From positions 1 to 41,041 of the forward strand of contig JALZUU010000496.1 of NCBI GenBank assembly GCA_023300665.1: DNA of 41,041 nt, given 5' to 3'. The DNA is from Saprospiraceae bacterium (GTDB lineage: Bacteria; Bacteroidota; Bacteroidia; Chitinophagales; Saprospiraceae). Below are positions 7,955 to 34,890 of the stretch, piece after piece (position 1 is the first letter of the stretch; every line of letters starts with the position of its first letter). A program made the position numbers and the translations under genes. The notes beneath the pieces were generated by a model that made no database searches, was not told where the DNA came from, and worked only from the letters and a program-made list of their open reading frames with translations.

Positions 7955-8353
7955 CTACAATCCACCAATAGCATATTTCAACACATCAAATCTAAAACCG
8001 TCTTTTCTTTCTAGCAGTAATTTAAATTCTTCTTTTGTTATTTTTCGCATTTCTGAATCTGACAACCAGAAACTTTTAAGCACTTTCAATTCATCATTAA
8101 CTGGATTGAGTTCATTGAGCATTTTCACAATGCGTTCTCTGTTTACTTCATCCACCAAGGCGTAAATTACTGCCTCGTCTAATTTTCTAAAATTTAATTC
8201 TGCCTCTGCCGTCTCTAGTGCCTTGGAGCTAAAATTTTCTGGATGTTCTAAAACCGAAATTAAAGTTTTGGTATCCTTACGAGCATATCTTTTTGCTAGA
8301 TCCATAGTAGTTTGCTTTTTCTCATTGAAATTATTAATTGAAATAAGATACAA
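7955..8353 (-). CDS. Hypothetical protein, 132 aa (possible start at internal ATG 8305)
   Basis: ORF co-oriented with and 26 bp downstream of giant PKD gene 1. MDLAKRYARKDTKTLISVLEHPENFSSKALETAEAELNFRKL... gave no recognised family. Confidence 0.65.
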   Translation of the reverse strand: MYLISINNFNEKKQTTMDLAKRYARKDTKTLISVLEHPENFSSKALETAEAELNFRKLDEAVIYALVDEVNRERIVKMLNELNPVNDELKVLKSFWLSDSEMRKITKEEFKLLLERKDGFRFDVLKYAIGGL

Positions 8354-8379
8354 AAGTTCAAGAACAACTGCAAAATCTA

Positions 8380-11300
8380 CTATCGAACTAGGGTGATATC
8401 TCCTTTAATCAAGATCGGTAAGTTATTTACAGGACAAGTTGCCTCAACAAAATAAACATATACGCCTATTGGCATTCTTTCTCCTTTTACCTCACCATCC
8501 CAGCCTCGTCGCATATCATCAGTTCTAAAAACCAATGCACCCCAGCGATCAAAAATCTGAAAGGATTCAATTGAATTCAGCGTAGCTGAGTTAACGATTA
8601 CTTCATCGTTGCGGCCATCATCATTAGGAGAAAAAGCAGATGGAACCCAAAGGATATCCTCTGGACAAGAGATCAACACCTCCGTCCTGGTCATTAATTC
8701 TTTTTCACAACCAGTATCCAAATCTGTTATTAATAAGGTATAAGTAGTTCCAACAAACGCGCTATCAACAATCGGCCGGAGACAATCGGTACAACTTAGT
8801 CCCTCTTCAGGAAACCAACTAAATTGATAATTACCAGTCGTATCTGCTATTGGTTCAATTACTAATGGAAGATCAGGCAACGCATATGTAATTGCATTCA
8901 GGGTGACATCTGGGCCTTCATCCACATTTACCGTAACAAAAGCCGTATCTGCTGGACAATCAGTCAAGGTACCGATCAAGGTATAAGTAGTTGTTATATT
9001 TGGAAAAGCATCCGTAATAGCACTATTAGGATCTGATAGAGATTCAGGTGAACTCCATTCAAAAATATCTGCATTTCCCGTGGCAGATAAGGTGATCGTA
9101 TCGCCATTACAAATATCTCTTCCAAAGGCTTCAATGGTTGTTTCTTCTACCACACTGATAAGTACTGAATCGATCAGTACACAATTGTCTTGTGTCAGTG
9201 TTAATTGATAAACAGTCGTAGTATCCGGTGTAGCCGTGGAATTCAAATTTGTAGGATCAGAAAGAGTACTATTTGGAAACCAATTAGCATCACCCTCCCC
9301 TATTCCATTAAGAAGAATACTCCCACCTGCACAAAGGAAAACATCTTCCCCTGCATTTATTCCGTCTTGCGTAAGCACCGTCACCGTAATAGAATCTTGA
9401 ATAAGACAACCTTCATCTGTAGAAATTTCTACTTGATAAGTAATGGTAGAATCTGGAAAAGCAATTGGATCAGGACAAAAAGCACAACTCAAATTTTCAG
9501 GATTGGTCCATTCTAAACCTAGCACACCAGTCATCAAAACAACTGAATCTCCTCGGCAAATGATACGATCCTCGCCAGCCAGCGGTTGGAATTGATCTAC
9601 TAAATTAATCGTAACTGAATCAATCGCCGAACAACCTTCCCCATTAGTAACCGTCACAACATAAGTAGTAGATTCGGATGGATTTGCAATTGGGTTCGAA
9701 CAAAACTGATAGCAACTTAAGCCTGGTCGTGACTCGTCCCACTCGTAAGAAAATACATCACTTCCTCCAGTAACGTTTAACTGAATTATATCACTTACAC
9801 AGATCGCCGTATCAGCCGTAATTCCAACTACTGGAATAGCAGTATCCAAAACCGTAACAGTAGTTGATAAGGTAGTTGAACAACCTTCGGAATTCAATGC
9901 TGTAAACTGGTAAGTAGTCGTAGTCGTTGGAGATACTTCTACCTCTAAACAATTCGTACAACTTAAATCTGTTCCACCAGTCCACATAAAAGTCAGCTCA
10001 TCCACTGACCCTTCAATGATCGGTGTTAAGGTAACTATTTCTCCTCTACAGATCGTCTGATCTGAATTTAGCGTCATCCTTGGAGCTGCTAGCACTTCTA
10101 TTTCAATAGAATCTGATGACTCACAACCGAAATCAGTTCCAACAGTCAACACTGTTTGATACACACCAGCATTGTTATAGGTATGAGCTGGATTCGGTGA
10201 ACCAGCCATTTCTCCATCACCAAAATCCCAATTCCAGTTAGAAATCGCGCCTATTTCAGTAGTAGACATATCACTAAAATTAACTAAAAATGGTTCACAT
10301 CCAATAGTATCAGAAACTTGAAAGCTTATATCAGGGTCGCTACCAATTTTAATATAATTGGGTCTGGTTAAAGTGTCCTGACAAAACGCTGTATTCACAA
10401 AGAGCGTAACATCAAAAATACCAGCTGTTGGATAAGTAATAGTTGGTTCAGATTCTGTAGTACTCCCTTCTAAAGAACCAGGAAATATCCATTCTACCCC
10501 AGTAATTGGTGTAGTTGATTGAGATAGATTGATAAAGGAAGTTGATAAATTTTCTCCACATAAAAGAGAATCCATTGCGAGAAAATCTACATTTATACCT
10601 GTTACTTGAATACTATCTGGTGATTCGATGGCTCTAGCACAATTAGATTCGTCAATAAGAATAAGCTTAGGAACGAATGTACCAAGTGCTTGATAGACGT
10701 AAGTGACCTCATCAGAGATGACATTAAGCGTAGTATCTAACACACCGTTTCCAAAATCCCAAATATAATCGTAGAAATCAGTTGATGTTCCTGAAAAATG
10801 GACTTGCATTGGTGCACAAGAAGTATCTACAACAAAGTCAAAATCTCCTATGGGACCATTAAGCGTAATTAAATCATCGATGGTTAAAGTGTCTCGACAA
10901 TTTTCGGTACTTCCTACAATTAAGGTTACATCATAGGATCCGGGAATAGTATAAACATGCGGAGGATTTTCTAAATTACTGGTTCCAGATACATCCCCAA
11001 AATCCCATTCGTAAAAATTAGCATTAAGAGAAGTATTCATAAATCGAGCAATCAAAGGAGGACAAAACGCAAAGGTTGAATCAACCGTAAAATCAGCTAC
11101 TGGATTAGCAATAGTGATGTAATTTTCTTTACACTGCATATCCATGCAACCATATTGATTAACAATACTCAGACAAACGTCATAACTTCCTTCTTGCGTA
11201 TAATTATGTTCTGGTGCTGCTTCTGTAGACGTAAAACCATCTCCAAAATCCCATAAATAAGTCAATTCACCAGTGACTAGGGCTTCGAAATTCACTAAGT

Positions 11301-13956
11301 CAGCGGTACAACTAGTAGTATCTGCTGTAAAAGTTGCTTTTGGATCGGTTACCTCAATTTGGTTATTTCTCTTTCTCCGAACGGTACATCCATCACCATC
11401 TGTTACAATCAATTCTATTGAAAAATTTCCTACGGTATCAAAAGTATAGGTAAAACTTTCCTCCTCTGAGGTAAATAAGCCATTGCCAATATTCCAGGAC
11501 CAGGTAAGTGGCGTACTCAAGGCACTTGTGGAGTTATCAGAAAAATTTACAGTTAATGGTAAACAACCTCCCGAAACATCAATATCATAGTCTACTATTA
11601 AACCTCGCGCGAAAATAGTTTCAAAGGTTCTAAAGGTATCGGTACATTCGTGAATATCAGAAATAACTAGTGTCACTTCATCATAAATTCCTGGGGTATT
11701 ATAAGTAAAAGTAGGTGAATCCGTATTCGCACCTGTTATCTCCGCTCCAGGAGCAATCCATTCGTAAGTTTCTGCAAAGATGGAATTATCCTCTACGGTT
11801 ACTTCCAATGGAGCACATCCATCTGTATTATTCAAATTAAAAAAGGCACGAGGATCAGAAATACATACAGTCATTGTATCATGATCTACACAATCGGTAG
11901 TAAGATTAAAAACACTATGAACAACTTTATAGCATCCAGTATCCGCAAAAACATGAGTAGGACTCAGAATTGTAGATGTATCGGTCGTAATATTTTCTTC
12001 TCCAAAATCCCAAAATACGGAGTCAACCCCAAAGCTTCGATCTACAAAACTAATAGAAAAAGGGTTTTCACAGTTTCGATCAACACGCGCTCTTCCTATC
12101 GGAGGATTAACATGAATTAAGTCTTCATAAATAATCTCCGAAAAACAGCCATAATGAAATGCAAAAAGCTGTACATCAAAAAAGCCTGTATCGATATACT
12201 CATGAGATGGATTTTGATTATCTTCTACTATTACTCCATCACCATAATCCCATATCCAAAAATTGGCATTATCACTTGACAAATCTGTAAAACTTACAAT
12301 AGCATCAATACAAGTCTCCAAAGGGGTTGCCGAAAAATCAGCAGTAACTTCCTCTCCTACCGCAACAGCTCCTTCAAAAAAACCAGTACTACTACAGCCA
12401 TCTTCGTTCACCACTGTCAGTTGAACATTATATAAGCCAGTATCCACTAAGGTGTGTGTAGGGTTTTCTTCTGTAGAAGTAAAAAGAAGCTGATTATCTT
12501 GGTCAAAAATATTCCATTCCCAGCTATTGATTGCTACAGAAGTAGCCGAACTTTCATCCAAGGTAAATTCATAAGGAGTGCATCCCCAGTAACTAGACTC
12601 CGTAAGCTGTACTGCAGTTTCAATCACGTGTATCGTATCTCGATAGATCGTTTGACAACCATTACCATCTCTAACGCGTAACACAATTGGATAAACGCCA
12701 TAATCATCATAACTATGAGAAGAATTTTGTTCGTTAGCAGTAGTTCCATCTCCAAAACTCCAAAACCAAATTACATCATCATTTGAACTAGCAACAAAAG
12801 ATACGTCATGCGGAAGTATACAACCGGTGGGGTTATCATTAGAAAAGACAGCCATAGGGGCTGATTCTATTAGTAAACAATCAGATAACCGTCCTACTGA
12901 TGGGCAATCTTCTGTAAAACGAGTAAGGGAAACCTCAAAACACCCTCCTTGATCAAAAGAATATACTGGATTAATTTCTGTAGAAAAATTACCATCTCCA
13001 AAATCCCAAAGAACACTATCGGCTGGTTCAGTGGAGTTATCCATAAATGAAATATTAGTTCCTTGACAACTATTATTACTTGAATAATCTATCTCTACAG
13101 GATTCCCTAACTGCAAAATATTACTAAAAATTTCGCTAATCATACAATTTGTATTCTGATTCATAGCGGTTACCGTAATATCGTAAGTACCAGGATCTGT
13201 ATAAATAATTGGAGGAGGATTCACCCCAGTAAAAGATTCTCCATTACCAAATTCCCATATATAAGTTAGGTCATTTGCAGGACTATTATTGTTAAAATCA
13301 GCGGTAAAAGGAAGTTCACAACTAAATGCCTCGTCAATGGTAACATTGACCTCCGGATCAGGAAAAACAGTGATTAGATCAGTTTGTGTAATCGTATTTG
13401 AACAATTATTATCATCTGTAATAGTTAAACTAACCGTATAATTATCTGGGATATCATAAGTGTTTGTGACTACCTCGGCTGGATCAGTCACTACGACTAC
13501 CCCACTAGATCCACCAATCCCCCATATCCATTCTTCAATATTACCTACGCTGGTAGATTGATCAGTAAACGTAACTTCAAGTGGAGCACAACCAGCTATT
13601 TCAGAGACAGTAAAATCAGGGATAGGCAATGGAAAAACTTCGATATAGGCAGGTTTACAAATAGAATCCGTCATTCCTTCTGTGTCTGTCACCATCAAGC
13701 AAATATCATAAGTACCGGGTGTACCAAATATTCTTCCAGGATCTTGGGTGCCAGCAGAAACACCTCCTAAATCCCACGACCAATCGATAATCGTATTGGC
13801 GGAGGTAGATTGATCAGTAAAGGAAACTTGTAAGGAGCCGCAACCTGTGGTAATACTAGCATCGAAGTCAGCAGTTATCTGCGCTGATCCCCAACTAGTA
13901 AATATAAACACAAAGCAAAGCGACCAAAATATGCGTGTGTGGTGCATTTCAGTCAA
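8380..13956 (-). CDS. Giant PKD-domain surface protein 1 with C-terminal T9SS type-B (CHU_C / gliding-motility-associated) sorting domain
   Basis: 1858 aa. Signal peptide MTEMHHTRIFWSLCFVFIFTSWGSAQ; about 15 repeats of the type C.PL.V.F.D.S...W.WDFGDG....NP.H.Y...G.Y.V.L.V....C; 6 Ig-like Cys modules; end SAFSPNDDGRNDEV...IFDRWGALVF...GWDG...G.YVYFVEATC....KGDITLVR. Confidence 0.95.
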   Translation of the reverse strand: MTEMHHTRIFWSLCFVFIFTSWGSAQITADFDASITTGCGSLQVSFTDQSTSANTIIDWSWDLGGVSAGTQDPGRIFGTPGTYDICLMVTDTEGMTDSICKPAYIEVFPLPIPDFTVSEIAGCAPLEVTFTDQSTSVGNIEEWIWGIGGSSGVVVVTDPAEVVTNTYDIPDNYTVSLTITDDNNCSNTITQTDLITVFPDPEVNVTIDEAFSCELPFTADFNNNSPANDLTYIWEFGNGESFTGVNPPPIIYTDPGTYDITVTAMNQNTNCMISEIFSNILQLGNPVEIDYSSNNSCQGTNISFMDNSTEPADSVLWDFGDGNFSTEINPVYSFDQGGCFEVSLTRFTEDCPSVGRLSDCLLIESAPMAVFSNDNPTGCILPHDVSFVASSNDDVIWFWSFGDGTTANEQNSSHSYDDYGVYPIVLRVRDGNGCQTIYRDTIHVIETAVQLTESSYWGCTPYEFTLDESSATSVAINSWEWNIFDQDNQLLFTSTEENPTHTLVDTGLYNVQLTVVNEDGCSSTGFFEGAVAVGEEVTADFSATPLETCIDAIVSFTDLSSDNANFWIWDYGDGVIVEDNQNPSHEYIDTGFFDVQLFAFHYGCFSEIIYEDLIHVNPPIGRARVDRNCENPFSISFVDRSFGVDSVFWDFGEENITTDTSTILSPTHVFADTGCYKVVHSVFNLTTDCVDHDTMTVCISDPRAFFNLNNTDGCAPLEVTVEDNSIFAETYEWIAPGAEITGANTDSPTFTYNTPGIYDEVTLVISDIHECTDTFRTFETIFARGLIVDYDIDVSGGCLPLTVNFSDNSTSALSTPLTWSWNIGNGLFTSEEESFTYTFDTVGNFSIELIVTDGDGCTVRRKRNNQIEVTDPKATFTADTTSCTADLVNFEALVTGELTYLWDFGDGFTSTEAAPEHNYTQEGSYDVCLSIVNQYGCMDMQCKENYITIANPVADFTVDSTFAFCPPLIARFMNTSLNANFYEWDFGDVSGTSNLENPPHVYTIPGSYDVTLIVGSTENCRDTLTIDDLITLNGPIGDFDFVVDTSCAPMQVHFSGTSTDFYDYIWDFGNGVLDTTLNVISDEVTYVYQALGTFVPKLILIDESNCARAIESPDSIQVTGINVDFLAMDSLLCGENLSTSFINLSQSTTPITGVEWIFPGSLEGSTTESEPTITYPTAGIFDVTLFVNTAFCQDTLTRPNYIKIGSDPDISFQVSDTIGCEPFLVNFSDMSTTEIGAISNWNWDFGDGEMAGSPNPAHTYNNAGVYQTVLTVGTDFGCESSDSIEIEVLAAPRMTLNSDQTICRGEIVTLTPIIEGSVDELTFMWTGGTDLSCTNCLEVEVSPTTTTTYQFTALNSEGCSTTLSTTVTVLDTAIPVVGITADTAICVSDIIQLNVTGGSDVFSYEWDESRPGLSCYQFCSNPIANPSESTTYVVTVTNGEGCSAIDSVTINLVDQFQPLAGEDRIICRGDSVVLMTGVLGLEWTNPENLSCAFCPDPIAFPDSTITYQVEISTDEGCLIQDSITVTVLTQDGINAGEDVFLCAGGSILLNGIGEGDANWFPNSTLSDPTNLNSTATPDTTTVYQLTLTQDNCVLIDSVLISVVEETTIEAFGRDICNGDTITLSATGNADIFEWSSPESLSDPNSAITDAFPNITTTYTLIGTLTDCPADTAFVTVNVDEGPDVTLNAITYALPDLPLVIEPIADTTGNYQFSWFPEEGLSCTDCLRPIVDSAFVGTTYTLLITDLDTGCEKELMTRTEVLISCPEDILWVPSAFSPNDDGRNDEVIVNSATLNSIESFQIFDRWGALVFRTDDMRRGWDGEVKGERMPIGVYVYFVEATCPVNNLPILIKGDITLVR

Positions 13957-14368
13957 TAATTAATCCCGGTTAAATAATGTAAAATTCGCTTCACTGCACA
14001 ACGTACCTCAGGCACTTTTATCTTATGTACAGCATATTGCTTTCTCATAAAAGAAATGGATCGTACCTTGAAAAAGGCCATTTCCATAAGTAATGTAGGT
14101 AATAACATTATTAAAGACTGCCACATTCCAGATGACAGAATCTACCTTAAAATCAATTTAAGAAAATGTTATTAGGTAATTGATTGGTTAGATGGTTAGA
14201 TTAGAGAAATACTTTTTTAACTATTCAAATGTTCCTAAAGAAGTTTCTCTACCCCTCATTTTTAATACGGCCACAAATCTAAGCTTTTTTTCCAGTTTTC
14301 TTAAAAAAAAAGGCTTAAAAAATTAAAAAATATTATTAAATAAATAAATATGTTTATATAAGTATCAT

Positions 14369-17300
14369 TTATCGAACTAAAGTGATATCTCCAGAATGGA
14401 TTACGGTCTGTCCTGTCAGCTCACAAGTAAATTCTAACATAAAAACATAAACACCGATCGGCACTGGATTTCCCTTCATTCTTCCGTCCCATCCATGGTC
14501 ATATAAATCATCTGTTTCGTACAATAATGCTCCCCATCGATTAAAAACTCGAAAGCTATTTATCGACGTGATAGAAGGGTTCGGAGATATTTGTAAATAA
14601 TCGTTTTCACCATCATCATTGGGTGAAAATACATTCGGTACTGCAATCAAATCAGAAGGACAGGTAAGCAACTCATCAAAAACAATGGTATCTGTAACAG
14701 CACATCCAGTAGTTAGATCTGTAATTAGCACTTGATAGATCGTGTTGCTATCTGGTAAAATTTCTGGTTGCTGACAATCTACACAATCCACACTATCGGA
14801 TGGCATCCACTGATATTCATACAATGAACTATCTGGTACCGTTAATGGAATTCGGATAGGAATGCCTGGAAGGTAAGTTAGTACCTCTGGTAAATAGGTC
14901 ACAGGCTTTGGAGTAACTTCCACCATTATCGTAGCTGTATCTGGTTCACAAGTGGTGTATTGACCAACTACAGTATAATTTGTAGTCTCTAATGGTTGAA
15001 CAGTTACCAGGTCTATCTCATTTCCAAATTCATCAAACCAAATGGCCTGATCTGCTACCCCTTCATACGCTAATTCAACTATTTCTCCTTCACAAATCGC
15101 AACATCTTCTGTTTCTATAGTGGTTTTTTCAATTAAAGTAACCGCTATAGAATCTACTAACGTACAGTTTCCTTCCGTTAGCGTAAGTGTATAAATCGTG
15201 TTGACGGTAGGATTAACTTCTGTTTCCAAAGTATTCGCTGAAGAAACAGATTGAATCGGTGTCCAATTGGCTGTGCCCACGCCACTTCCTATTAAAGTGG
15301 TAGTTGAACCTTCACAAATCTGTTGGTCCTCTCCTGCGTCAATGGTATTTAAAGGAATTACTTTTATTTCGATGGTATCTAATAATTCACAACCATCATC
15401 TGTCGTTACGCGCACTCGATAGATCGTTGTACTATCTGGTTTTGCTACTGGATCAGGACAATATGTACAATCCAATCCATCGGTTACTAACCAAGTAGGA
15501 TCATTGCCCAAAATAGTATTTAGTTGAATGGTATCCCCTTCACAAATTGTTTGGTCTTCACCTACTATTGATTGTGGTTCGTTTGAAATAGTTACCAACA
15601 CTGAATCTGTGCTAGCACAACCAAATTCGTTGGTTATGGTTACTTGATAATTCGTGGTAACAAATGGACTAGCAATAGGATTAACACAGGCATCATAACA
15701 ACTGAGTCCTGCTGCATCCGTGCCCCACTGATATTCGTGCAAATCATTCCCACCGCTTACTCGTAGCTGTACAAAATCATTTAAACAAATACTGGTATCT
15801 TGGGTAAGTGCAACTATAGGTGCTGCAAAAGGACGAACCTCCACTGTTACTCCTTCCGTAGTAGTACATCCAATTGTATTAGTAACAGCTAAGTGATAGA
15901 TAGTAGTATCTGCCGGATTTACCATTGGTGTTAAACAATCCAAACAACTTAGATCTGGATGATTGATCCATTGAAACTGATATCCTGTAGTATCTTCTGT
16001 AAATTCAGGAATTAGTTCAGTGAATTGACCGATACAAATAGATTCTGGTTTAGGAATTGAGAAGACAGGTGATTCTAAAACCTCTACCATTCTAGTAGTA
16101 GAGTCCTGACATCCGACAGCAGAAGTAACTGTCAATGTGATATGGTGATTACCTGGTTCATTAAAAATAAATACAGGTGCATTTATAGTTGTTTCTTCGA
16201 TATTGTTAAAATTCCAATGATAACTTGTAATAGTACTACTATCTACGGTAGAAAGGTCTTGGAAATTAACGGTTAAAGGTGCGCATCCCACGGAGTCACT
16301 TACTTGAAAAGCGACTTCTGGAATAGCTCCTACACCGATATAATCTTCTTTTAATAATGAATCAATACAGATTCCATTACTAACCAATAATTGTACAGAA
16401 AAACTGCCTGGATTTAGATATTCAATACTTGGTTCTGGTTCTGTACTACTGGAAGGATTAGCACCAAAGAATTCCCATTCTAAATCAGTAATCGGATGAG
16501 TAGACCCTGTTAAGTTGGTAAATTTAGTCATCCCTTGATCGTTGCAAAATAACGTTTTATCCGCCTGAAAATCTAAATTCATTTCTGAAATAACAATAGG
16601 ATTGTCTGCAACAATAGTCGTTTGACAATCTACTTGATCTATTAATATTAGTTTTGGAATAAAATTTCCACCATTTTCATAAACATAAAAAATACTATCG
16701 TGAGTGACGTTCTCCGTAGTATCTAACATACCATTTCCAAAGTCCCAGATATAAGTATAAGGAGCAGCTGAATTACCTACAAAATTTATAGTAGCCGGTG
16801 CACAGGCCGTATCGATATCAAAATAAAAATTACCTGTCGGACCATTTAGATCAATCAAATCATTCATAAATAAAGTATCCTGACAAAACTCCGTCGCAAC
16901 GGCAATCAATTGAACACTGTAAGTTCCTGGCATCGTATAAATATGGGGAGGATTTAATTGATTAGAGGTTCCACTTTGATCTCCAAAATTCCATTCATAA
17001 GTAGTTGCATGAATGGAAGTATTTTCAAAGTTGACCAATAATGGTGGACAAATTCCAAAAGTAGTATCTTGGGTAAAACTAGCTACTGGATCAGCAATTA
17101 CAACATAGTCTTCTAGGCATCTAGTATTTTCACAACCAATACCATCTGTAACCGTTAGACAAACATCATAAGTCCCATCCATAGCATATATATGAATAGG
17201 GTCTTCCTCGGTAGAAGACAATCCATCACCAAAATCCCAAGAAAAACTTAATTCTTTTCCACTAGAATTATTCTTGAAGTTTACCCCATGTGCACTACAA

Positions 17301-19942: not shown

Positions 19943-20221
19943 GTAATAAGTTTCTCAGCATACAAATACAATCAATGTATTTTATGTGTCAGATTAGTAG
20001 AATACTGTTTGATTAGAATTACAGAGGGGAGTTTCGTGAAATCCTTCAATTTGTTGAGTTAGAAGTAAATTTCAAAGATGGTTATGTGTTAGGAAGGATA
20101 ATTCAAAAATAATGCCGTCCTTTCAAGGGTAGGAAGAAAGGGAATATTAGGGTGATAAAAGGTATTAAATACATGGATAAACTAAGCGATAATTTATGGC
20201 CAAGTATCTACCTATTTTAAT

Positions 20222-20256
20222 AAAAAAAACCAAAAGCCGGAGAACCGACCTTTGGT
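20222..20256 (-). terminator. Putative intrinsic terminator downstream of giant PKD gene 3
   Basis: Minus strand reads ACCAAAGGTCGGTTCTCCGGCTTTTGGTTTTTTTT: imperfect GC-containing hairpin followed by a T-run, about 65 nt after the stop at 20320. Confidence 0.7.
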
Positions 20257-20319
20257 AATATGTTGGGTTTATAATCTGAAGGCTGTCTGGAAAATTATAT
20301 TTATTCTAATTTTCTTTTA

Positions 20320-23300
20320 TTAACGAATAAGGGTAATATCACCGGATTTAACCATTGTATTATTTAGTACAGGGCAATCTGCCTCAATCATATAAATATA
20401 TACGCCATTTGGTAAAGGTTCCCCATTTGTTGTTCCATCCCAAGTTTCTCCTGCGTTAGAACCTTCATAAATTACTGCTCCCCAGCGATTAAAGATTCTA
20501 ATACTGTTAATAGATGGTAAAGCTGGATTTAAGAAAACTTCAAATACATCATTTTGTCCATCATTATTTGGAGAAAAAGCACTTGGAACCTGAATTAGCT
20601 CTTCTGGACACTGATTCAGTAAGTTTAAAGTTGTGGTAAATTCATTAGAGCAACCTGTATTAATATTCGTTACCATTAATTGATATTGCATTCCGCTTTC
20701 TGGACTTGGTATAGCTAATTCCCTACAATCAATACAATCAACACCTGCGGTAGAACTCCACTCATATTCATAATTATTGCGGTCTTCGCCTTTAGGAGCT
20801 GGGTTGAGAATAACTTCTTGGCCAGGGAAAAAGACATAGTTAGTTGGCATTTCTACTTTTGGAGCTGGATCGACCTCGACTGTCAGCCATGTTGTATCTG
20901 CTGCACAAGAAGCTAAGCGGCCGATAACCATATATTCAGTTGTTTCAATTGGGTAAACTATTGGGCTGCTAGGATCCGTCAAATCCATTCGATCTGTTCT
21001 TATCCATTCGTATTCGGACGCTTCTCCTTCTACCGACAATTGGACGGTATCACCTTCACAAATCAGCATATCTTCTGCAACAATCTCTATTTTTTCTCTA
21101 ACAGAGATTCTAACTGAATCAGTGAGTATGCATTCTCCGTTTTGAAGTTCTAATTGATAAACAGCCGTACTAGTTGGAAACGCTTCTGGATCTAAAATAC
21201 CAGCATCATCTAAGGTAGCTGCTGGAGTCCAACTCACTGTTCCACTACCCTGTCCATTTAATGCAACTCCATCTCCTAGGCAAATTGTTTGGTCTTCACC
21301 AGCATCAATATCATCGGCACTAAAAGTATTTATTGTTACTGTATCTGTGATCGTACAACCTTGATCTGTCAGTACTTGTACTACATAATCAGTTGTTTCA
21401 CTAGGAAAGGCAATCGGACTTGGACAATAAGTACAACTCAAATCATTGTTCACCAACCATTCTGGGTTTCTACCTGTTGCGATATTAAGTTGAACTGTAT
21501 CACCAGCACAAACACTTCGATCTTCGCCAGCAAACTGCTGTGATTGATCTACAATATCTACCTCAACTGAACTTGAAGCCGAACAACCATGAACCGTGGT
21601 AACAGTAACGGTATACGTACTACTCGTTAAAGGTTGTGCAATTGGATTTTGGCAATTTTCATAACAAGATAATCCTGGAACATTCATATCCCAATCATAA
21701 TTAAATACTTCCGTTCCACCACTCACATTTAACTGTACAATTTCATTGAGACAAATTGACGTATCCGCAGATAGATCGACCACTGGTACAGGAAAGGGTT
21801 TTACCATAACCATTACTTCGCTAGTAGATGTACATCCTTCTGGCGTACGTACTACGAATGTATAAGTGGTCGTATCCGATGGGGTAGCTACAGGGTCCAT
21901 ACAAGCAACACAACTCAATGATTGACTTGGACTCCAGTAATATTCTAAACCAGTTGTATCTCCAAAGACTAAACCTTCTAATATCGTAGGTTCTCCAATG
22001 CAAATCGTTCTGTCTTCTCCAGCACTAATATCTGTTACTCCAAGTAAGCTGATTGTTTCAGATTGAGTAGCGGTACAACCATCAGCGGTAGTAATAACTA
22101 AACTAACATTAAAAGTATTGGCAGTTTCATTGGTAAAAACATGTGTTGGATTGGGAATATCTGCCGTTCCACCATCTCCAAAATTCCATTCCCAAGATAT
22201 AATTTCGCTATTCATAACAGCACTATTATCCGTAAAATTCACAGTTAATGGAGTACAACCCGTAGTAGCAGAAGCTGTAAAATTAATATCTGGAGCATCG
22301 CCCAATTTGATATAATCTGGTATTAATAAAGTATCTGTACATCCACCATTATCAATGACCATTCTTACGTCAAAAGAACCTGGTGTATTGTAAGTTACTA
22401 TAGGTTCAAATTCATCACTAGTTGCGGGACTTCCTCCTTCAAAAATCCATTCAACTGCTTGTATAGGGGTAGCACTTGAAGAGAGGTTAATGAAATTCAC
22501 TGTTTCACCGGGGGTACATAATACCGTTTCAGATGCTTCAAAATTTGGAGTACTAGAAGCCACAACGATAGGACCAACTGGTGGTAAAGTTCGGAAACAT
22601 CCTGTATTATTAATAAAACTCAAAGTAGGATAATATGTTCCTGGCTCGGTATAAGTAAAAGTCACTTGATCATTTACTGCACTAATCTGAGTAGTATCCA
22701 AATTACCTAAACCAAAATCCCATATATACATATAATTAGCCGCAGAATTAGCGGTAAAAGTGATGATTGCCGGTGCACAAGAGGTATCAATATCAAACTG
22801 ATATTCCCCCTCTGGTCCATCTAGAACGATGAGGTCTTGTGTCATTAAACTATCTTGACAAGCCTCCGTTCGGAAAGCCCTAAGTGTTACGTTATATACA
22901 CCAGGAATCGTATAGATATGGGATGGATCATCTAAATTAGATAAACCACTATTGTCTCCATAATCCCAAGTAAAAGAACTCGAATTAGTTGACTCGTTAA
23001 AGAAGTTTACTGGTAATGGTGGACAACTAGCAAAAGTAGAATCTACCGAAAAGCCTGCAACAGGATCAGCAATATCTATTGAATTTTCTCGACAAAAAGT
23101 ATTAACGCAATCAAATTTATCTGTCACGGTAAGACAAACAGTATAAATGCCCTCATTAGCATAAGTATGAGTCGGGTTTTCATCCGTAGAAGTTTCTCCA
23201 TCTCCAAAATCCCAAAAATGATCTAAGGCTACGCCTTCTGAGGCATCTGTAAAGGTCATTCCTGCCCAAGTACATCCAAGTGTATCCGCAGCGAAGTTAG

Positions 23301-25902
23301 CAATAGGATCCGTTACTTCAATTGCACCAACCATATTTCTAGCTCTTCTACACCCCCAACTATCTGTCACGATCAATCTTACATTGTGTAACCCAGTTTC
23401 TGTAAAAGTAAAAGTAGGGTTTTCTTCGGTAGATGTTCCTAAGCCATCACCAAAAGTCCATTCCCAAGATTCAATTGTAGCAAAATCACTAGTAGCATTT
23501 TCTGTAAAATTAACTGTTAATGGTAAACAACCACCAGTTACATCCATTGTGAAATTGGAAATGGCTCGACCAATTGAGATTGTTTCGGTAAATAAAATGG
23601 TATCTTGACAGTCATTCACATCTGTAATAATCAATTGTACATCTGAATAAGTTCCAAAAGTATTATAGAGGATAATAGGTTGTTGAGCGGAAGGATCCTC
23701 GATTGTTGCTCCAGGAGCGCTCCATTCCCAAGCGACAGCGTCCTGAGAACTTTCTTCGATTAATAAAGTATATGGTCTACAACCTTCCGTTTCCAGCACA
23801 GAGAAACTAGCCGCTAGGTCTCTAACTCTAGCGAATCTTGTCGTTGTATGTGAACATTGAGTTTCAGAATTATATACGGTCATGGTAACCAAATAATCTC
23901 CCGTTGCTGGATAGATATATTCTGGGTCGCTTTCGGTAGAAACATCTGTACTAATTCCATCTACTCCAAAATCCCATTCTACAAAATCCGCATCAATAGA
24001 ATTATTCTTAAATTTCTTGAGGAATGGGTCTTCACAGAAATTGATTACCTGAAACTTAGCCACTGGCGCCATTACATGCATATAATCATCTAAGGTAAGT
24101 GTGTTTACACATCCGTTATGAGTTCCCACTAAACTAATATCGTAACGTCCAGTATCTTGATAACTCATCGTAGGATTTTGTTCATCAGAATTTTCTCCAT
24201 TACCAAAATCCCAAAACCATTCTTCAACATTTGGAGAAGAGGCATCCGTAAAGTTTACCTCCCACTCAATACAAGTTTCAACTGGATCAGCAGAAAAATT
24301 TATTTCTGGTGGAGATCCTACTTCAATAGATTGTAAAAAAGTAGCCGTATCTCGACACCCTAGTGTATTGGTTACAATTAAAACAACATCGTAAATACCT
24401 GTATCAATAACGCTAAAAGTCGGTTCTTCTTCTATTGATGTATAACTAGTATTTGCTGACTTTACTTCCCATTCCCAAGACGCAATATCCGTTACGGAAA
24501 TCGAAGATTCTGTTAAGGCTACATCTAGTGGTGCACAACCAGAAATATCGGTATCGTCTAAGACGGCTTGTAGTTCTGTTAGATTTATGGTATTAACGGT
24601 AGCAGAATTTGTACAACCAAAAACATTGGTAACCGTCAGCGTAACTGGGAAGTCACCAAAATCCTCAAAAGAATGCGTAGGATTCTGTTCGTCAGAAGTA
24701 TTCCCATCCCCAAAATCCCAACTCCAAGCTACTGCGCTGGAAGAAATAGCAGAGAAGTTTACAACATGTGGTAAAACACATCCTATATTATTATCATTTG
24801 CATACCAAACATCCGGTTGTGGATCTACTCTGATACATTCAGAAGCAAAAACAACCGAAGGGCAGCCTTGTGCTGTTCGAGAAAGTTTAACGGTATAGCA
24901 ACCGGGTACTTCATAAGTATGACTAGGGTTGGCTTCTGTAGATAAATTTCCGTCTCCAAAATCCCATTCTATCTCAGTAGCAGTATCTGGAGATTCATCC
25001 GTAAAACTTACAGTAAGATCTTCACAACCACCTTCTACTGAACTAGTAAATTCGGCATAAGCCCCAACCTGAACATAGTCTGTTAAAACCAATGTATCAG
25101 CACATTGAGAAGCTGCATTAGTAGCGATTGCCGTTACCGTGTAAAACCCTGGAGTATCATAAGTGACCGCAGGAGGATTATCTCCTTGAAAAATATTCCC
25201 ATTTCCAAAATCCCAAGTAAGGAGAATATTTGGATTTGGACTATTATTAATAAAATTCGTAGTATGAGGCGCATCACAACCGATCAGATTATCTCCACTA
25301 ACATCTACGACGGGAGCAGGAGATACACTTATAAAATCGGTTTTTGTAATGGTATTTGTACAGCCATTGGCATCAATAACTGTTAAATTTACGCTATAAT
25401 TATCTGTTATTTCGTAAGCACAAGAAGGACTCTCACCTGTGGTATTCGAAATCGTTCCACATGAACCACCTAATCCCCACATCCAATCGGTAATAGCTGC
25501 ATCTGCTGGTTGAGAAGCATCTATAAAGGTCGCTACTAAAGGCACACAACCTTGCGGTTGATCAGCCGTAAAGTCTGGAACTGGTAAGGCAAAGACCGTA
25601 ATAAAATCGTCTTTACAAATCTCATCGGTATTCCCACCAGTATCGGTTACCTTTAGACAGATAGAATAAACACCTGGTGTACCAAAGATTCGACTGGGAT
25701 TCTGCTGAGTCGCGTTTAAATCTCCTGTCCACTCCCAAGATACAATAGATCCATTAGAAGTAGTAGAGGCATCCGTAAAGGCAGCCTGTAAAGATCCACA
25801 ACTAGTCGTGTTATTGACTGTGAAATCAGCAGTAATCTGAGCATTGACTACCTGAACAAAAAATAACAATGCAAGTGCAAAAAAAATGTTTCTTAGTGGC
25901 AT
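20320..25902 (-). CDS. Giant PKD-domain surface protein 3 with C-terminal T9SS type-B sorting domain
   Basis: 1860 aa with signal peptide MPLRNIFFALALLFFVQVVNAQ. Same architecture, and C-terminus AFSPNNDGQNDVFEV...IFNRWGAVIYEG...TWDGTTNGEPLPNGVYIYMIEADC...KSGDITLIR. Confidence 0.95.
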   Translation of the reverse strand: MPLRNIFFALALLFFVQVVNAQITADFTVNNTTSCGSLQAAFTDASTTSNGSIVSWEWTGDLNATQQNPSRIFGTPGVYSICLKVTDTGGNTDEICKDDFITVFALPVPDFTADQPQGCVPLVATFIDASQPADAAITDWMWGLGGSCGTISNTTGESPSCAYEITDNYSVNLTVIDANGCTNTITKTDFISVSPAPVVDVSGDNLIGCDAPHTTNFINNSPNPNILLTWDFGNGNIFQGDNPPAVTYDTPGFYTVTAIATNAASQCADTLVLTDYVQVGAYAEFTSSVEGGCEDLTVSFTDESPDTATEIEWDFGDGNLSTEANPSHTYEVPGCYTVKLSRTAQGCPSVVFASECIRVDPQPDVWYANDNNIGCVLPHVVNFSAISSSAVAWSWDFGDGNTSDEQNPTHSFEDFGDFPVTLTVTNVFGCTNSATVNTINLTELQAVLDDTDISGCAPLDVALTESSISVTDIASWEWEVKSANTSYTSIEEEPTFSVIDTGIYDVVLIVTNTLGCRDTATFLQSIEVGSPPEINFSADPVETCIEWEVNFTDASSPNVEEWFWDFGNGENSDEQNPTMSYQDTGRYDISLVGTHNGCVNTLTLDDYMHVMAPVAKFQVINFCEDPFLKKFKNNSIDADFVEWDFGVDGISTDVSTESDPEYIYPATGDYLVTMTVYNSETQCSHTTTRFARVRDLAASFSVLETEGCRPYTLLIEESSQDAVAWEWSAPGATIEDPSAQQPIILYNTFGTYSDVQLIITDVNDCQDTILFTETISIGRAISNFTMDVTGGCLPLTVNFTENATSDFATIESWEWTFGDGLGTSTEENPTFTFTETGLHNVRLIVTDSWGCRRARNMVGAIEVTDPIANFAADTLGCTWAGMTFTDASEGVALDHFWDFGDGETSTDENPTHTYANEGIYTVCLTVTDKFDCVNTFCRENSIDIADPVAGFSVDSTFASCPPLPVNFFNESTNSSSFTWDYGDNSGLSNLDDPSHIYTIPGVYNVTLRAFRTEACQDSLMTQDLIVLDGPEGEYQFDIDTSCAPAIITFTANSAANYMYIWDFGLGNLDTTQISAVNDQVTFTYTEPGTYYPTLSFINNTGCFRTLPPVGPIVVASSTPNFEASETVLCTPGETVNFINLSSSATPIQAVEWIFEGGSPATSDEFEPIVTYNTPGSFDVRMVIDNGGCTDTLLIPDYIKLGDAPDINFTASATTGCTPLTVNFTDNSAVMNSEIISWEWNFGDGGTADIPNPTHVFTNETANTFNVSLVITTADGCTATQSETISLLGVTDISAGEDRTICIGEPTILEGLVFGDTTGLEYYWSPSQSLSCVACMDPVATPSDTTTYTFVVRTPEGCTSTSEVMVMVKPFPVPVVDLSADTSICLNEIVQLNVSGGTEVFNYDWDMNVPGLSCYENCQNPIAQPLTSSTYTVTVTTVHGCSASSSVEVDIVDQSQQFAGEDRSVCAGDTVQLNIATGRNPEWLVNNDLSCTYCPSPIAFPSETTDYVVQVLTDQGCTITDTVTINTFSADDIDAGEDQTICLGDGVALNGQGSGTVSWTPAATLDDAGILDPEAFPTSTAVYQLELQNGECILTDSVRISVREKIEIVAEDMLICEGDTVQLSVEGEASEYEWIRTDRMDLTDPSSPIVYPIETTEYMVIGRLASCAADTTWLTVEVDPAPKVEMPTNYVFFPGQEVILNPAPKGEDRNNYEYEWSSTAGVDCIDCRELAIPSPESGMQYQLMVTNINTGCSNEFTTTLNLLNQCPEELIQVPSAFSPNNDGQNDVFEVFLNPALPSINSIRIFNRWGAVIYEGSNAGETWDGTTNGEPLPNGVYIYMIEADCPVLNNTMVKSGDITLIR

Positions 25903-25946
25903 TGGAAATCACTTTAGGGTTCTTAAATAAAACACGCAAAACTCTC

Positions 25947-26004
25947 ATATCTGTCAAACAGATATAATTAAATTAATATCTGTTAAACAGATTTAATTTA
26001 AATA
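25947..26004. promoter_or_regulatory. Tandemly duplicated 29-bp unit containing a 15-bp dyad (operator-like)
   Basis: ATCTGTCAAACAGAT (25949-25963) and ATCTGTTAAACAGAT (25978-25992). The second is a perfect dyad, and the surrounding 29-bp units are about 25/29 identical. Lies 45-100 bp upstream of the start at 25902. Confidence 0.55.
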
Positions 26005-26217
26005 AGCCACGGGATTATAATTAGGTAGAGGGGTAATTGTAGGTTAATATGACATGGTGTAGGGAATAGGATATTTCAATTATGACAATATTCATTCCAA
26101 AACATATCGATATTACACAATACGATTACTAATAGTTATATGTACAATGGCGTCAATTCGTTTTTACAAAAGAGATTTTGCAAAAGAGACTATAAAATCG
26201 GGTCAACAAAAACTAGA

Positions 26218-26235
26218 ATCGTAGGAACCTACGAT
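26218..26235. terminator. Small inverted repeat, possible terminator for the PorP/OmpA transcript
   Basis: ATCGTAGGAACCTACGAT (8-bp arms). On the minus strand it is followed by TCTAGTTTTTG, but it lies about 280 nt beyond the stop at 26519. Confidence 0.35.
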
Positions 26236-26518
26236 AGATTAGATTAACGAGACAATTCGCTTTTTGTTTGGGTTTAAGTTAACTTTTTAATAAAAAAAAT
26301 AATATTTATAAAAAATCAATATTTTGAATGTTTTTTATAAAAAGATTTTAAGATTAAATAGATAATTGAACCTACGCGCAATTTAACACATTGTTCATCA
26401 ATATCATAATAAATAACAAAAAAAATTCATACATAATATAAAATAAGGGAATTCACCGATAAACTAGGAGTAAAACTCAGGGTTTTCCCCTAGTACTAAG
26501 TTAATCTTTTAATTCTGG

Positions 26519-28615
26519 TTATTTTACCTGTATTTCCACTAGCTCTACCCTTCTTTCTCGAGCAGCAGCTGGAACATAAATCGAGTTTCGGCGATCTTGG
26601 AGCAGATCACTAACAGAAGAGGAAGCCTTGGTTTCTCCGAAAGATTTTTCTTTAATATTTAATTGTCCACCATTAAAATAGGGAACGAATACGCCATTTT
26701 GATGGCTTTGAAAGAAATTAATAATAGAAGCCGTTCTTCTTTTACCAAGGGCAAGATTATAACCGGAGAGTGCTCGGGGACTAGTAAAGCCTTGAAGAAT
26801 CAGAGATACGTTCTTCCCTTGCTCTAATTGAGTGACCACCCCGTTACAAAACGCCAAAAATTCAGTATAACCCATTTTTAGGTCTTGATCAAAAAAATCA
26901 TTTACCGATTGCTTTTCATCCGTTAATACCGCAGTGAGGTATTCTTGTCGACGCTGGATATAGTCATTATAAGTAGTCTCATAATTTTTATTAGTGGTCT
27001 CCAAAAAGCTGTGAGCATCTGGTCGATCATTATGAAAATATAACGGTAAAGGCAACATCGTCTTAAGCTGGTCAATGGTAGTAACAATCGGAGGAGCCGT
27101 AATAACTTTAGGAGGCGTAACTGGAACTTTTGTTGGAATGACAGGAGGTGTTTCAGGAACGGGCTTTACTGGAGGAGGTGGAGCCACCACTACAACCGGA
27201 GTTGTATCTACTAATACTGGTTCTACAGGTGGGACTGGTGGTGTAGGTGGCATTATTACCAAAGTAGTAGTATCTTTTTCTGGAACGCTTGGGTCTTTTG
27301 GTAAGGGTGGATGTATTTTTACGGCAAAAATATCATTACAACAAGCTTTATTTTTTTCTTCTAAATAAAAAGAACCTGTGCGGTTAGAAGAAATATAAGC
27401 TTGCGTGGAATCGGCATTCAACGTAAAATAAATATCATTATAACTACTATTCAAAGGATATCCTGTGTGTTGAGGTGGTTCCCAGGTACTGCCGTTATGT
27501 TTAGTTTGATAGATATCGTATCCACCCAAATTTTGATAACCTTCTGAGCTAAAAAATAAAGTTTGAGATTTTTGGTGATAAAACGGAGTGATATCGTCTT
27601 TTTCTGTGTTAATAGCCGTCAGGTTGGTTGGAACGCCAAACCCATTTTTAGTTATCTCTACTTGATAAATATCCAAGCCTCCTTTTCCTTCGGGACGATC
27701 AGAGGAAAAATAGAGGACTTCCTTTTCCGTAGTTGGGTCTAAACCCCAAGTTGGTTGAGTAGACGTATACCCTTCCATATTAACGGTTGCGGGTAATTTC
27801 TCCGCTTTCCCCCAACGCTTTCTTTTATCTTGATCTCGAAAATAAATTTGACACCGAATGTCTACTGTCCCGATATACTCACAGATCGTATAATAGATCC
27901 GTTGGCCATTGGATGTAAGACTGGTATGCGCGGTAAGTTTATCTGTTTCGTTAAATTTTCGAGTCAACGGACGGCCTTTCGCCGTTCCAGTTTGGGTTAA
28001 AACTTTAGTCATCCGACGTTGAGGGTCAGAGAGATCTTTCATCATTTTATACCGATAAGAAGAATAGTATAAAGTATCGCCTTGACGGATGGCACCAAAT
28101 TCAGAATAAGGCGTATTAATTTTTTTATCTAAATGGGTTACTTCAATATTATGGGGTTGATTGACCAAAGATAAAGCCCATTTGCATGCTTGCTGGGCAG
28201 AGATCGCCTGATTTTTAAAGGCTTCGTTTGGTGTATTTTTAATAAAATCCTTAAATCCATTGATGGCTTTTTCATATTGCCCCAAACTTTGATAAGCAGT
28301 AGATAGCCAGAATTTGGTTAATGGAAACTGATCTGCTTTTTTATCATTTAAAACTAATTGATACTGTTGGATCGCCAGATCATAAGCAAAAAACTGCCGA
28401 GCTGCTTCTCCATATTGATAACGAATTTCAGTTTCTGAACCTGGAAAAGCAAGTGCCTCTTCAAAATAGTTCATAGCGGAAAAATAGTCATGCTTAGTCA
28501 TCGCTTCTTCACCAGCACGAATAAACGCGGCTTTTGTTTGAGCAGAATTTACTCCTATCAAGAATAAGTTAAAGACAATAAAAAGAAATATTTTTTTCAT
28601 GAAAGTGTTTTCCAA
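26519..28615 (-). CDS. TPR / PD40 (WD40-like propeller) / OmpA-family protein (PorE- or SprE-neighbourhood-like); likely start MKKIFLF at 28600
   Basis: 698 aa: signal peptide, TPR-like helices (AEEAMTKHDYFSAMNYFEEALAF), PD40-type repeats (LYFSSDRPEGKGGLDIYQVE, LFFSSEGYQNLGGYDIYQT, AYISSNRTGSFYLEEKNKACCNDIF), a Pro-rich linker and an OmpA-like C-terminus (LILQGFTSPRALSGYNLALGKRRTASIINFF). Confidence 0.88.
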   Translation of the reverse strand: MENTFMKKIFLFIVFNLFLIGVNSAQTKAAFIRAGEEAMTKHDYFSAMNYFEEALAFPGSETEIRYQYGEAARQFFAYDLAIQQYQLVLNDKKADQFPLTKFWLSTAYQSLGQYEKAINGFKDFIKNTPNEAFKNQAISAQQACKWALSLVNQPHNIEVTHLDKKINTPYSEFGAIRQGDTLYYSSYRYKMMKDLSDPQRRMTKVLTQTGTAKGRPLTRKFNETDKLTAHTSLTSNGQRIYYTICEYIGTVDIRCQIYFRDQDKRKRWGKAEKLPATVNMEGYTSTQPTWGLDPTTEKEVLYFSSDRPEGKGGLDIYQVEITKNGFGVPTNLTAINTEKDDITPFYHQKSQTLFFSSEGYQNLGGYDIYQTKHNGSTWEPPQHTGYPLNSSYNDIYFTLNADSTQAYISSNRTGSFYLEEKNKACCNDIFAVKIHPPLPKDPSVPEKDTTTLVIMPPTPPVPPVEPVLVDTTPVVVVAPPPPVKPVPETPPVIPTKVPVTPPKVITAPPIVTTIDQLKTMLPLPLYFHNDRPDAHSFLETTNKNYETTYNDYIQRRQEYLTAVLTDEKQSVNDFFDQDLKMGYTEFLAFCNGVVTQLEQGKNVSLILQGFTSPRALSGYNLALGKRRTASIINFFQSHQNGVFVPYFNGGQLNIKEKSFGETKASSSVSDLLQDRRNSIYVPAAARERRVELVEIQVK

Positions 28616-28650
28616 TTTGGAATCTCAGGGACATAAAAGACATCCGCTTC

Positions 28651-29700
28651 CTAGAAGATAGGACAAGATTTAGAAGCTTTTAAAGGTTTGACTTTGGTGA
28701 TACGATACTGCAATGCTAGCTCGGGACCACCTCTACCATTCGTCGCTAATTCAAACTCAGATTGATTGAAATCATAGCTAAAGCCCAAAATCCAAGCATT
28801 ATAAGCCACCGCAATATTAGGAATTAAGGCATCTCTATCACCAATAAAACGATAGCTTGCTCCCAGCCGTAATCCTAATTCACGACCTCTTGTATCTGTG
28901 AGCTGATACTTAATAGCGGCTCCAGCTACTGATTCTGTGTAGGCATTTTGTTTTTGAAAATAACTATTAAATTCTAAATCAATTTTTTCATTGATGGCAA
29001 ATCCTATATTTCCATAAATAGAAAAACGACGAGGAAGTACTGCTTCTCCTTGATTATAAAAACTAACATTGGGCTGCGTCAAATGAAATACACCCACCCC
29101 TAAATCTCCCCAGTATTTTTGTTCTTCATCTTGTAAATGCCAATTAAATCCAACTCCAAAATCAAGGTATTGAATACTTGTATCATCAAGATTTTCGCGC
29201 GTTGGAGCAGAACCTACAAAAAGATCTCCATTGAATTGATTACCAAAAGTGAGTTGACTAAGATCAATACGTCGTTGCCCCGCTCCGATCAGTAGTCCTG
29301 CGGTGATTAACTGTTGTTCGGTTAATTTTTGGGTATAACTGGCGGTAGCACTAATATTTGAATAGGTTAGATTTCCATCTCCAGCTATATCATGGTTAAA
29401 AACTAGTCCTCCAGAAAAGAAGCCATTAGGAAAGCTTAGGGAAGTTATTTTGCCATCTACGACCCCTGAAAAGGTTAAATAATCTACGGGAACAGACTTC
29501 CACTGCCTCCGATAATTGGCAGAAAAACGAATATCTTCTTTAAAAACCCCCGTCAAAGCAGGATTTAGCTGTAAAGGAGCATAGTAAAATTGAGAAAAAT
29601 GCAAATCTTGTCCTTTCAGACCAAAAACGGTTGAAAAGGCGAGTAATAATACAATATTCTTTATGTAAAACTTTGTCTGCAATATTCTAGATTTAATCAA
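28651..29700 (-). CDS. PorP/SprF family type IX secretion system outer-membrane protein
   Basis: 349 aa with QDLHFSQFYYAPLQLNPALTGVFKEDIRFSANYRRQW, the hallmark PorP/SprF N-terminus. Beta-barrel-like body, C-terminus ...KASKSCPIF. Confidence 0.93.
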   Translation of the reverse strand: MIKSRILQTKFYIKNIVLLLAFSTVFGLKGQDLHFSQFYYAPLQLNPALTGVFKEDIRFSANYRRQWKSVPVDYLTFSGVVDGKITSLSFPNGFFSGGLVFNHDIAGDGNLTYSNISATASYTQKLTEQQLITAGLLIGAGQRRIDLSQLTFGNQFNGDLFVGSAPTRENLDDTSIQYLDFGVGFNWHLQDEEQKYWGDLGVGVFHLTQPNVSFYNQGEAVLPRRFSIYGNIGFAINEKIDLEFNSYFQKQNAYTESVAGAAIKYQLTDTRGRELGLRLGASYRFIGDRDALIPNIAVAYNAWILGFSYDFNQSEFELATNGRGGPELALQYRITKVKPLKASKSCPIF

Positions 29701-29825
29701 TAGAATTCATATTCAAATTTACGATAATTTTTCTTTTCACTCGTCTGATTCTTAGGGTTATGCCCAGATTCGACTTTTTCAAATTATTATTCTTGAAAAA
29801 AGGAGCTTATCTTGCAAGAAAAAAC

Positions 29826-34766: not shown

Positions 34767-34890
34767 CTGACCGATCCCGAGTGAAAGGGACAATACGTTG
34801 AGGGAAGGCACCGCGTAAGCGGACGGGATGTGTGGATGTGTTTATAAATTTAGAAAATAAAAAATAAAAAATAGTTAAATAGTAAATAAA

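Follow-up and report, generated by a model that had tools for sequence, protein, structure and literature searches.

Gene Content of the Locus

The window analyzed here, a 41,041-nt stretch of DNA from a Saprospiraceae bacterium, carries at positions 7955-29700 a block of six minus strand genes that is highly likely to be a type B surface-display locus of the type IX secretion system (T9SS). The genes encode a PorP/SprF-family carrier, a PorE-like protein with TPR, PD40, and OmpA-like parts, three giant PKD proteins, and a small protein, as an earlier note made from the sequence alone had described; open reading frames (ORFs) and profile searches confirm this content, and the ORF listing contains no further minus strand ORF of at least 100 residues in the block. 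The same note correctly placed the porP and OmpA-type genes 35 bp apart and upstream of the giants, and its description of a type B adhesin locus that includes a dedicated carrier and a PorE-like partner is supported by profiles and synteny. The most informative features, which were missing from it, are a lone cysteine in the tail of the carrier and a Cys-Cys pair in the partner. The features of the block, all on the minus strand, are as follows.

28651-29682, minus: PorP/SprF-family outer-membrane carrier (TIGR03519), 343 residues from TTG 29682; the longest ORF reaches 29700
28663-28665, minus: tail cysteine of the carrier (KSCPIF, fourth residue from the C terminus), its only cysteine
26519-28600, minus: PorE-like TPR/PD40 propeller/OmpA-like periplasmic protein, 693 residues from ATG, no lipobox; AlphaFold2 mean predicted local distance difference test (pLDDT) 84.8
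27338-27343, minus: vicinal Cys420-Cys421 (ACCNDIF) of the PorE-like protein, in the loop that leads into the last propeller strand
27851-27883, minus: Cys240 and Cys250 of the PorE-like protein, opposite on adjacent predicted strands, both invariant
26735-26782, minus: OmpA-like peptidoglycan pocket of the PorE-like protein (Ser607, Asn615, Arg622)
20320-25902, minus: giant 1, 1860 residues; type B C-terminal domain (CTD; TIGR04131) at 20326-20595
14369-19942, minus: giant 2, 1857 residues; type B CTD (TIGR04131) at 14375-14644
8380-13956, minus: giant 3, 1855 residues from ATG; type B CTD (TIGR04131) at 8386-8646; PKD_4
7955-8305, minus: small protein, 116 residues from an internal ATG, shortly 3' of giant 3; no family

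Several of the starts in the ORF list, which gives the PorE-like protein as 698 residues, are TTG extensions; the true starts are probably ATG 28600 for the PorE-like protein and TTG 29682 for PorP. The block is genuine rather than an assembly artifact, because the same block is found in the independent genomes G002-G005.

The Carrier and Its PorE-like Partner

By its profile scores, the carrier is a clear member of the PorP/SprF family (174.3 bits against TIGR03519, cut-off 90.55, over residues 14-334; 130.9 against Pfam PF11751, cut-off 22.3). A sequence search of the PDB with the carrier gave zero matches, but the barrel model of a close homologue most resembles, among PDB folds, the F chains of two T9SS translocon structures (8gl6 and 6h3i), together with FadL-type barrels. 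The carrier ends in KSCPIF, with a single cysteine where SprF has a Cys-X-Cys tail; because it has no second cysteine, any disulfide that it forms must be intermolecular. The tail cysteine is present in all 67 members of a Cys-tail clade of carriers and is the sole cysteine of the mature protein in 45 of them. The mean identity of Cys-tail carriers is 35%, and conservation reaches 95% or more in only 21 columns, one of which is the tail cysteine. The 5.4-Mb metagenome-assembled genome (MAG) to which the window belongs, which is 87% complete, has at least 19 PorP/SprF genes.

The 698-residue PorE-like protein has PD40 repeats above the Pfam cut-off (43.3 versus 20.9 bits), whereas its TPR and OmpA matches are below cut-off; its AlphaFold2 model nevertheless has a helical TPR-like N terminus, a propeller, and an OmpA-like C terminus, in the order found in PorE. 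The best NCBIfam matches, NF053607 (CHU_0125 OmpA-like, 149.6 bits, cut-off 620) and NF052230 (PorE, 136.8 bits, cut-off 600), are far below their cut-offs and restricted to the TPR-propeller part; a PDB sequence search returned mainly designed TPR proteins. In an alignment of 42 such proteins, at 23-84% identity to that of the window, 18 columns are invariant, including Cys240, Cys250, and Cys421, and Cys420 is at least 90% conserved. In the model, Cys240 and Cys250 lie directly opposite each other on strands 234-243 and 247-257 (240 + 250 = 243 + 247) and probably form a structural disulfide, which would leave Cys420-Cys421 as conserved unpaired cysteines. The loop that contains the latter is modeled less confidently (pLDDT 76 for its block in the model of the PorE-like protein alone).

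The OmpA-like domain is less typical. In PorE of Porphyromonas gingivalis, the peptidoglycan peptide is held by three side chains (Asp576, Asn584, and Arg591), of which that of Asp576 contacts the diaminopimelate (PMC7192894). In the window protein, Asn615 and Arg622 are retained but Ser607 takes the place of the aspartate, a replacement found in 42 of the 45 proteins of its class that could be scored by pattern, whereas the partners of carriers with no tail cysteine have the HTD motif in their consensus. P. gingivalis PorE is also a lipoprotein, whereas a pattern search found no lipobox in the window protein or in 53 of the 55 proteins of its class. Since the diaminopimelate-contacting residue is replaced, and a lipobox is also missing, the peptidoglycan binding that the earlier note attributed to this protein appears doubtful, although two of the three pocket residues remain; the end of the tether proposed below may lie elsewhere.

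Association of the Carrier and Partner Cysteines

The relationship between the two cysteine features was examined in 117 adjacent porP-porE pairs from relatives and from across the phylum. A tail cysteine was defined as one within the last 12 residues of the carrier, and the partner was scored for at least two cysteines at the motif in the aligned loop of the last propeller blade. Such a motif is present in the partners of 54 of the 55 Cys-tail carriers versus none of the 62 carriers with no tail cysteine (Fisher's test, 6e-33, for pairs that are phylogenetically non-independent). Cys240 and Cys250 are distributed similarly (52/55 versus 0/62), and a cysteine pair in the OmpA domain has the reverse distribution: its two columns hold cysteine in 7/55 and 1/55, respectively, versus 59/62 for both. 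The class of the neighboring CTD, judged by nearest neighbors, matches that of the carrier in 106 of 112 cases, and carriers with FCPTCPVYL tails pair with CxC partners.

Seven loci beyond the 117, including order- and class-level relatives, concur; the partners at L329 and L330 still have the canonical HTD peptidoglycan motif. Fifty-nine pairs from named genomes were found with a 10-row PorE-like profile that includes the Cys-Cys motif, so that they test the carrier tail only; all 59 carriers have the tail cysteine. Locus L017, with carrier tail ICPRL and a Cys-Cys partner, belongs with L165 and L202 to a deep-branching subgroup whose carrier tails are ICPRL or FCPRF and whose partners have TCCxDI; the PorE-like C termini of this subgroup look unlike an OmpA-like domain and are possibly DUF1573-like.

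In trees from which the trait columns had been excluded, each label requires one change, together with one loss of Cys-Cys in L108. The pattern is thus, as judged from these sequences, a deep co-inherited split that is strictly conserved in both halves; by their cysteines, the type B carriers fall, together with the PorE-like partners and CTDs, into two lineages that are inherited jointly. With one split per tree, the alternative that the cysteines co-evolved repeatedly is not supported.

Comparison with Known Systems

Carriers encoded beside porE-like genes have been proposed to hold static adhesins, and those with no such neighbor mobile ones (Gorasia et al., PMC9143113; Commun Biol 2025, PMC12618676). 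SprF of Flavobacterium johnsoniae moves by means of a Cys-X-Cys tail bonded to Cys343 of GldK; Cys326 of SprF is the bonding residue, and both cysteines of the motif are needed for gliding (Liu et al., PMC12635249). In four complete Flavobacteriaceae genomes the neighbor rule and the tail-cysteine rule concur, as 15 of 15 PorE-paired carriers end in PRFF or PRYF, with no tail cysteine, and 8 of 8 Cys-X-Cys carriers have no PorE-like neighbor in the 1.5 kb read. The two rules conflict in the window locus and in many of its Saprospiraceae relatives, because Cys-tail carriers in this family commonly have a PorE-like neighbor, which itself has a cysteine pair.

The combination of PorP, a PorE-like protein, and a type B protein has been published for F. 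johnsoniae, where Fjoh_3952/3951/3950 and other porE-like/type B/SprF-like loci have the same three gene types adjacent and are proposed to form a static, cell wall-linked adhesin complex (PMC12618676, PMC9143113). The contrast with the sprCDBF operon drawn in the earlier note overlooked these loci. SprC and SprD are absent from the genes of the block, as judged from the lack of any extra minus strand ORF of at least 100 residues (SprC and SprD profiles were not run). The window locus differs from the F. johnsoniae porE-like loci in having three paralogous giants, which are downstream rather than upstream of the pair, and from those of the four Flavobacteriaceae genomes (a comparison that does not include the Fjoh sequences) in its Cys tail and Cys-Cys partner. 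With SprF-SprB and SprF-GldK (PMC12635249), it shares a carrier of giant type B adhesins with a periplasmic C-terminal tail cysteine, and its genome has the matching GldK cysteine, but its carrier has a PorE-like neighbor and one tail cysteine rather than Cys-X-Cys. The PorE-PorP-PG1035 system of P. gingivalis (PMC9143113, PMC7192894) similarly consists of a TPR, propeller, and OmpA protein, a PorP-type carrier, and a type B protein. The cysteine signature looks new: a search of the open access literature on PorE with SprF and disulfides or cysteines, with subscription journals and preprints outside its scope, found no account of a PorE cysteine pair.

A Possible Disulfide-linked Static Anchor

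The best explanation of the locus as a whole, which we advance tentatively, is that it displays surface adhesins on a carrier for which the PorE-like protein, joined to it by a disulfide, serves as a static anchor. The three giants would cross the outer membrane through the single SprA translocon detected in the genome, which is encoded elsewhere, and would be collected through their CTDs by the carrier and, still attached to it, would form long filaments on the surface; loading of cognate cargo would be in line with the agreement between CTD and carrier classes. The PorE-like protein would dock beneath the carrier in the periplasm, by analogy with P. gingivalis, in which carrier and PorE form a complex (PMC9143113). 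The lone cysteine of the CPIF tail and Cys420-Cys421 of the propeller would then form a mixed disulfide, a step that is possible but for which our confidence is limited, and a covalent link would hold the carrier with its adhesin on a static anchor in the periplasm. The arrangement would be a mirror image of the SprF-GldK link, with the donor pair on the carrier (Cys-X-Cys) in F. johnsoniae and on the partner (Cys-Cys) here. SprA, GldK, and a GldJ-like protein are encoded on other contigs (C470, C282, and C765, respectively), so that the module is not self-contained, contrary to the suggestion of the earlier note.

To model the complex, an in-frame read-through of the carrier-PorE operon of G002 was folded as one chain of 1047 residues. 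The predicted template modeling score (pTM) is 0.69, whereas the PorE-like protein by itself gives 0.63, and the pLDDT of the Cys-Cys loop block increases from 76 to 91; the artificial linker (residue 350 onward) falls in segments with pLDDT below 50, and the carrier tail residues are outside these. Such scores are as expected of a confident carrier-propeller interface, for which they are suggestive only. A functional link between a carrier and an OmpA-type anchor receives independent support from a natural fusion in locus L123 (G054:C8, 2091-3815, minus strand), a 574-residue ORF that joins a PorP/SprF barrel to an OmpA-like domain. The fusion adjoins a type B protein with a Cys-tail-class CTD. 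PorP/SprF barrels also occur within frames of 559-799 residues, apparently with extra C-terminal domains, at L353, L359, L361, L362, and L363 of Flavobacteriaceae genomes.

In more general terms, the lone tail cysteine may be captured by the vicinal Cys-Cys of a dedicated PorE-like propeller in a second, partner-side disulfide chemistry, so as to form a static tether that is covalent and possibly switchable, with type B systems consisting of two lineages matched in tail, PorE class, and CTD class; this generalization is somewhat doubtful. If it is true, the partner-side tether would be the counterpart in Bacteroidota of the SprF-GldK track link. Two papers of 2025 leave open how a type B adhesin is set static or moving, and the matched cysteines yield a specific three-residue prediction.

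Several observations weigh against a carrier-PorE disulfide, and they bear on three other explanations. The association of the cysteines reduces to one deep split in each of the two trees, for which shared ancestry alone could suffice, and L108 has a Cys tail but a single cysteine at the partner motif. With regard to the models, the two that were compared used different alignments, and the freedom of the tail is limited by the linker; the absence of the diaminopimelate-contacting aspartate also places the firmness of the partner's own anchoring in doubt. A single phylogenetic event is what would be expected if carrier and PorE-like protein formed a static non-covalent complex of the kind suggested for F. 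johnsoniae and P. gingivalis, and the cysteines were lineage markers or had structural or local roles, unbonded to each other. The complex formed in P. gingivalis and the lack of Cys-Cys in partners of carriers with no tail cysteine are in keeping with this explanation, but neither a vicinal pair retained within a flexible loop nor a single cysteine four residues from the C terminus is a likely structural element, and both features persist although mean identity between carriers is about 35%; we regard it as improbable.

The main rival is a link to GldK, in which the tail cysteine would bond GldK, as SprF Cys326 bonds GldK Cys343, and the giants would be gliding adhesins propelled along a track, with the PorE-like protein aiding only export or positioning. 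Twelve Cys-tail carriers retain the cysteine with no adjacent PorE-like gene; the tail cysteine therefore has a role independent of that neighbor, and its exclusive use by PorE partners is ruled out. Conversely, at least 12 loci have a Cys-Cys PorE-like gene but no detectable adjacent carrier. Loci at which a Cys-Cys PorE-like protein is present and a carrier was not detected in the stretch read are L251, L253, L254, L256, L272, L280, L286, L294, L297, L298, L301, L309, L326, and L328. The GldK of the same genome retains the residue to which SprF is bonded in F. johnsoniae, a cysteine aligned with Cys356 of PorK, which is the PorG-linked residue in P. gingivalis, where PorG works with one cysteine (PMC12635249); a GldJ-like protein is also present, although below the cut-off (370.6 versus 458.2 bits). 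A GldK link leaves the Cys-Cys motif of the partner unexplained, however, and the window tail has one cysteine rather than the twin motif needed for gliding in F. johnsoniae. The published mobile carriers, moreover, have no PorE-like neighbor (PMC9143113, PMC12618676), like the Cys-X-Cys carriers of the four Flavobacteriaceae genomes. On balance, the GldK link seems rather unlikely.

A disulfide relay would combine the two, the PorE-like Cys-Cys oxidizing or parking the tail cysteine and then passing it to GldK, so that the adhesin toggles between parked and moving states. A relay would explain together why the carrier has a single cysteine, why the partner has the donor pair, and why the GldK cysteine is conserved, but the Cys-tail carriers that have no adjacent PorE-like gene do not fit it well; we consider it distinctly improbable.

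The Giants and Their Conservation

The three giants (about 200 kDa) are, by their CTDs and by N termini that, as judged by eye, resemble signal peptides, type B T9SS substrates: the TIGR04131 scores (cut-off 35) are 57.9 bits for giant 1 (64.0 in a genome-wide CTD scan), 50.0 for giant 2, and 50.4 for giant 3. The genome has about 54 type B CTDs. PKD domains were scored on giant 3, where PKD_4 gives 443.6 bits over 14 stretches. The giants are paralogues of near-equal length (1855-1860 residues) with 43-44% mutual identity. Each has 56-59 cysteines (about 57), an unusually high number for surface filaments, and by eye many are in the C-terminal Ig-like region.

Wherever a position is readable in congeneric genomes, the giant found there is the orthologue of the window giant at that position, at 76-85% identity: orthologues of giant 1 (82-85%) and giant 2 (78-84%) are both found in G002-G005, and those of giant 3 in G002 and G003. 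A genome of another genus (G022) also has three giants, but with no one-to-one mapping. The small protein is found only in this genus, 3' of giant 3 in G002 and G003 only (80-86% identity). A family search with it gave no real match; OXA-493 β-lactamase, at 14.5 bits versus a cut-off of 475, is a chance match.

Conserved synteny, which the earlier note had named as the check on its proposal, was found, in that the carrier-PorE pair is conserved family-wide as a unit and giants of about 1860 residues recur within the genus and in several other Saprospiraceae. The named neighbors (68-84% identity of the PorE-like gene) are MAGs of uncultured Saprospiraceae. The pair also occurs in the cultured relatives Phaeodactylibacter xiamenensis KD52 and P. 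luteus, in neither of which a giant is seen beside it. Among the best named relatives, however, a type B giant is present within 3 kb after the pair in only 15 of 64 testable loci, and the giant triplet is thus, on this comparative evidence, lineage-specific cargo of a widespread carrier-PorE pair. At other loci of the same genome (L009-L012), the order is type B giant, carrier, and PorE-like protein, whereas in the window the pair precedes the giants. Saprospiraceae are reported to be abundant in wastewater treatment plants (PMC9304909), and cell-surface filaments could bear on the structure of wastewater flocs.

Transcription of the Block

Because they are only 35 bp apart, porP and the PorE-like gene are very probably expressed as one transcript. 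The description of the block as uninterrupted in the earlier note holds for strand but not for transcription, since the gaps upstream of giants 1, 2, and 3 are 616, 377, and 412 bp and a conserved terminator separates giants 1 and 2; in view of these features, a single operon of all six genes is not supported. The elements between giants 1 and 2 are as follows.

20229-20256, minus: intrinsic terminator 3' of giant 1, a 28-nt hairpin with a 12-bp stem and T run
20104-20111, minus: TAnnTTTG element (Bacteroidota -7-like) 5' of giant 2, a putative promoter element

The terminator hairpin is strong and is in the same place in four congeneric genomes, and TAnnTTTG is 3' of it in all five genomes. 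The case for it rests on this conservation and not on the overall scan, whose count barely exceeds chance (16 terminator-like sites versus 12). The 616-bp gap (25903-26518) is AT-rich and patchily conserved among the five genomes; it has no ORF longer than 43 residues and no Rfam match, which argues against a small gene or known RNA within it.

Neighboring Genes

Upstream of the block, a dephospho-CoA kinase gene (coaE, 29760-30419, plus strand) is transcribed divergently from porP, the two starts being about 78 bp apart. Farther away are an arsenosugar biosynthesis-associated peroxidase-like gene adjoining a radical SAM/DUF3641 gene (34428-35964, plus strand), a separate type A T9SS substrate (TIGR04183; 36143-37477, minus strand) 6.4 kb upstream of the block, and a YtxJ-type bacillithiol redox protein (37730-38119, minus strand). 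On the other side, a gene at 4684-7809 on the plus strand, convergent with the block, encodes a 1041-residue protein with a weak match to AsmA (21.9 bits, far below the cut-off).

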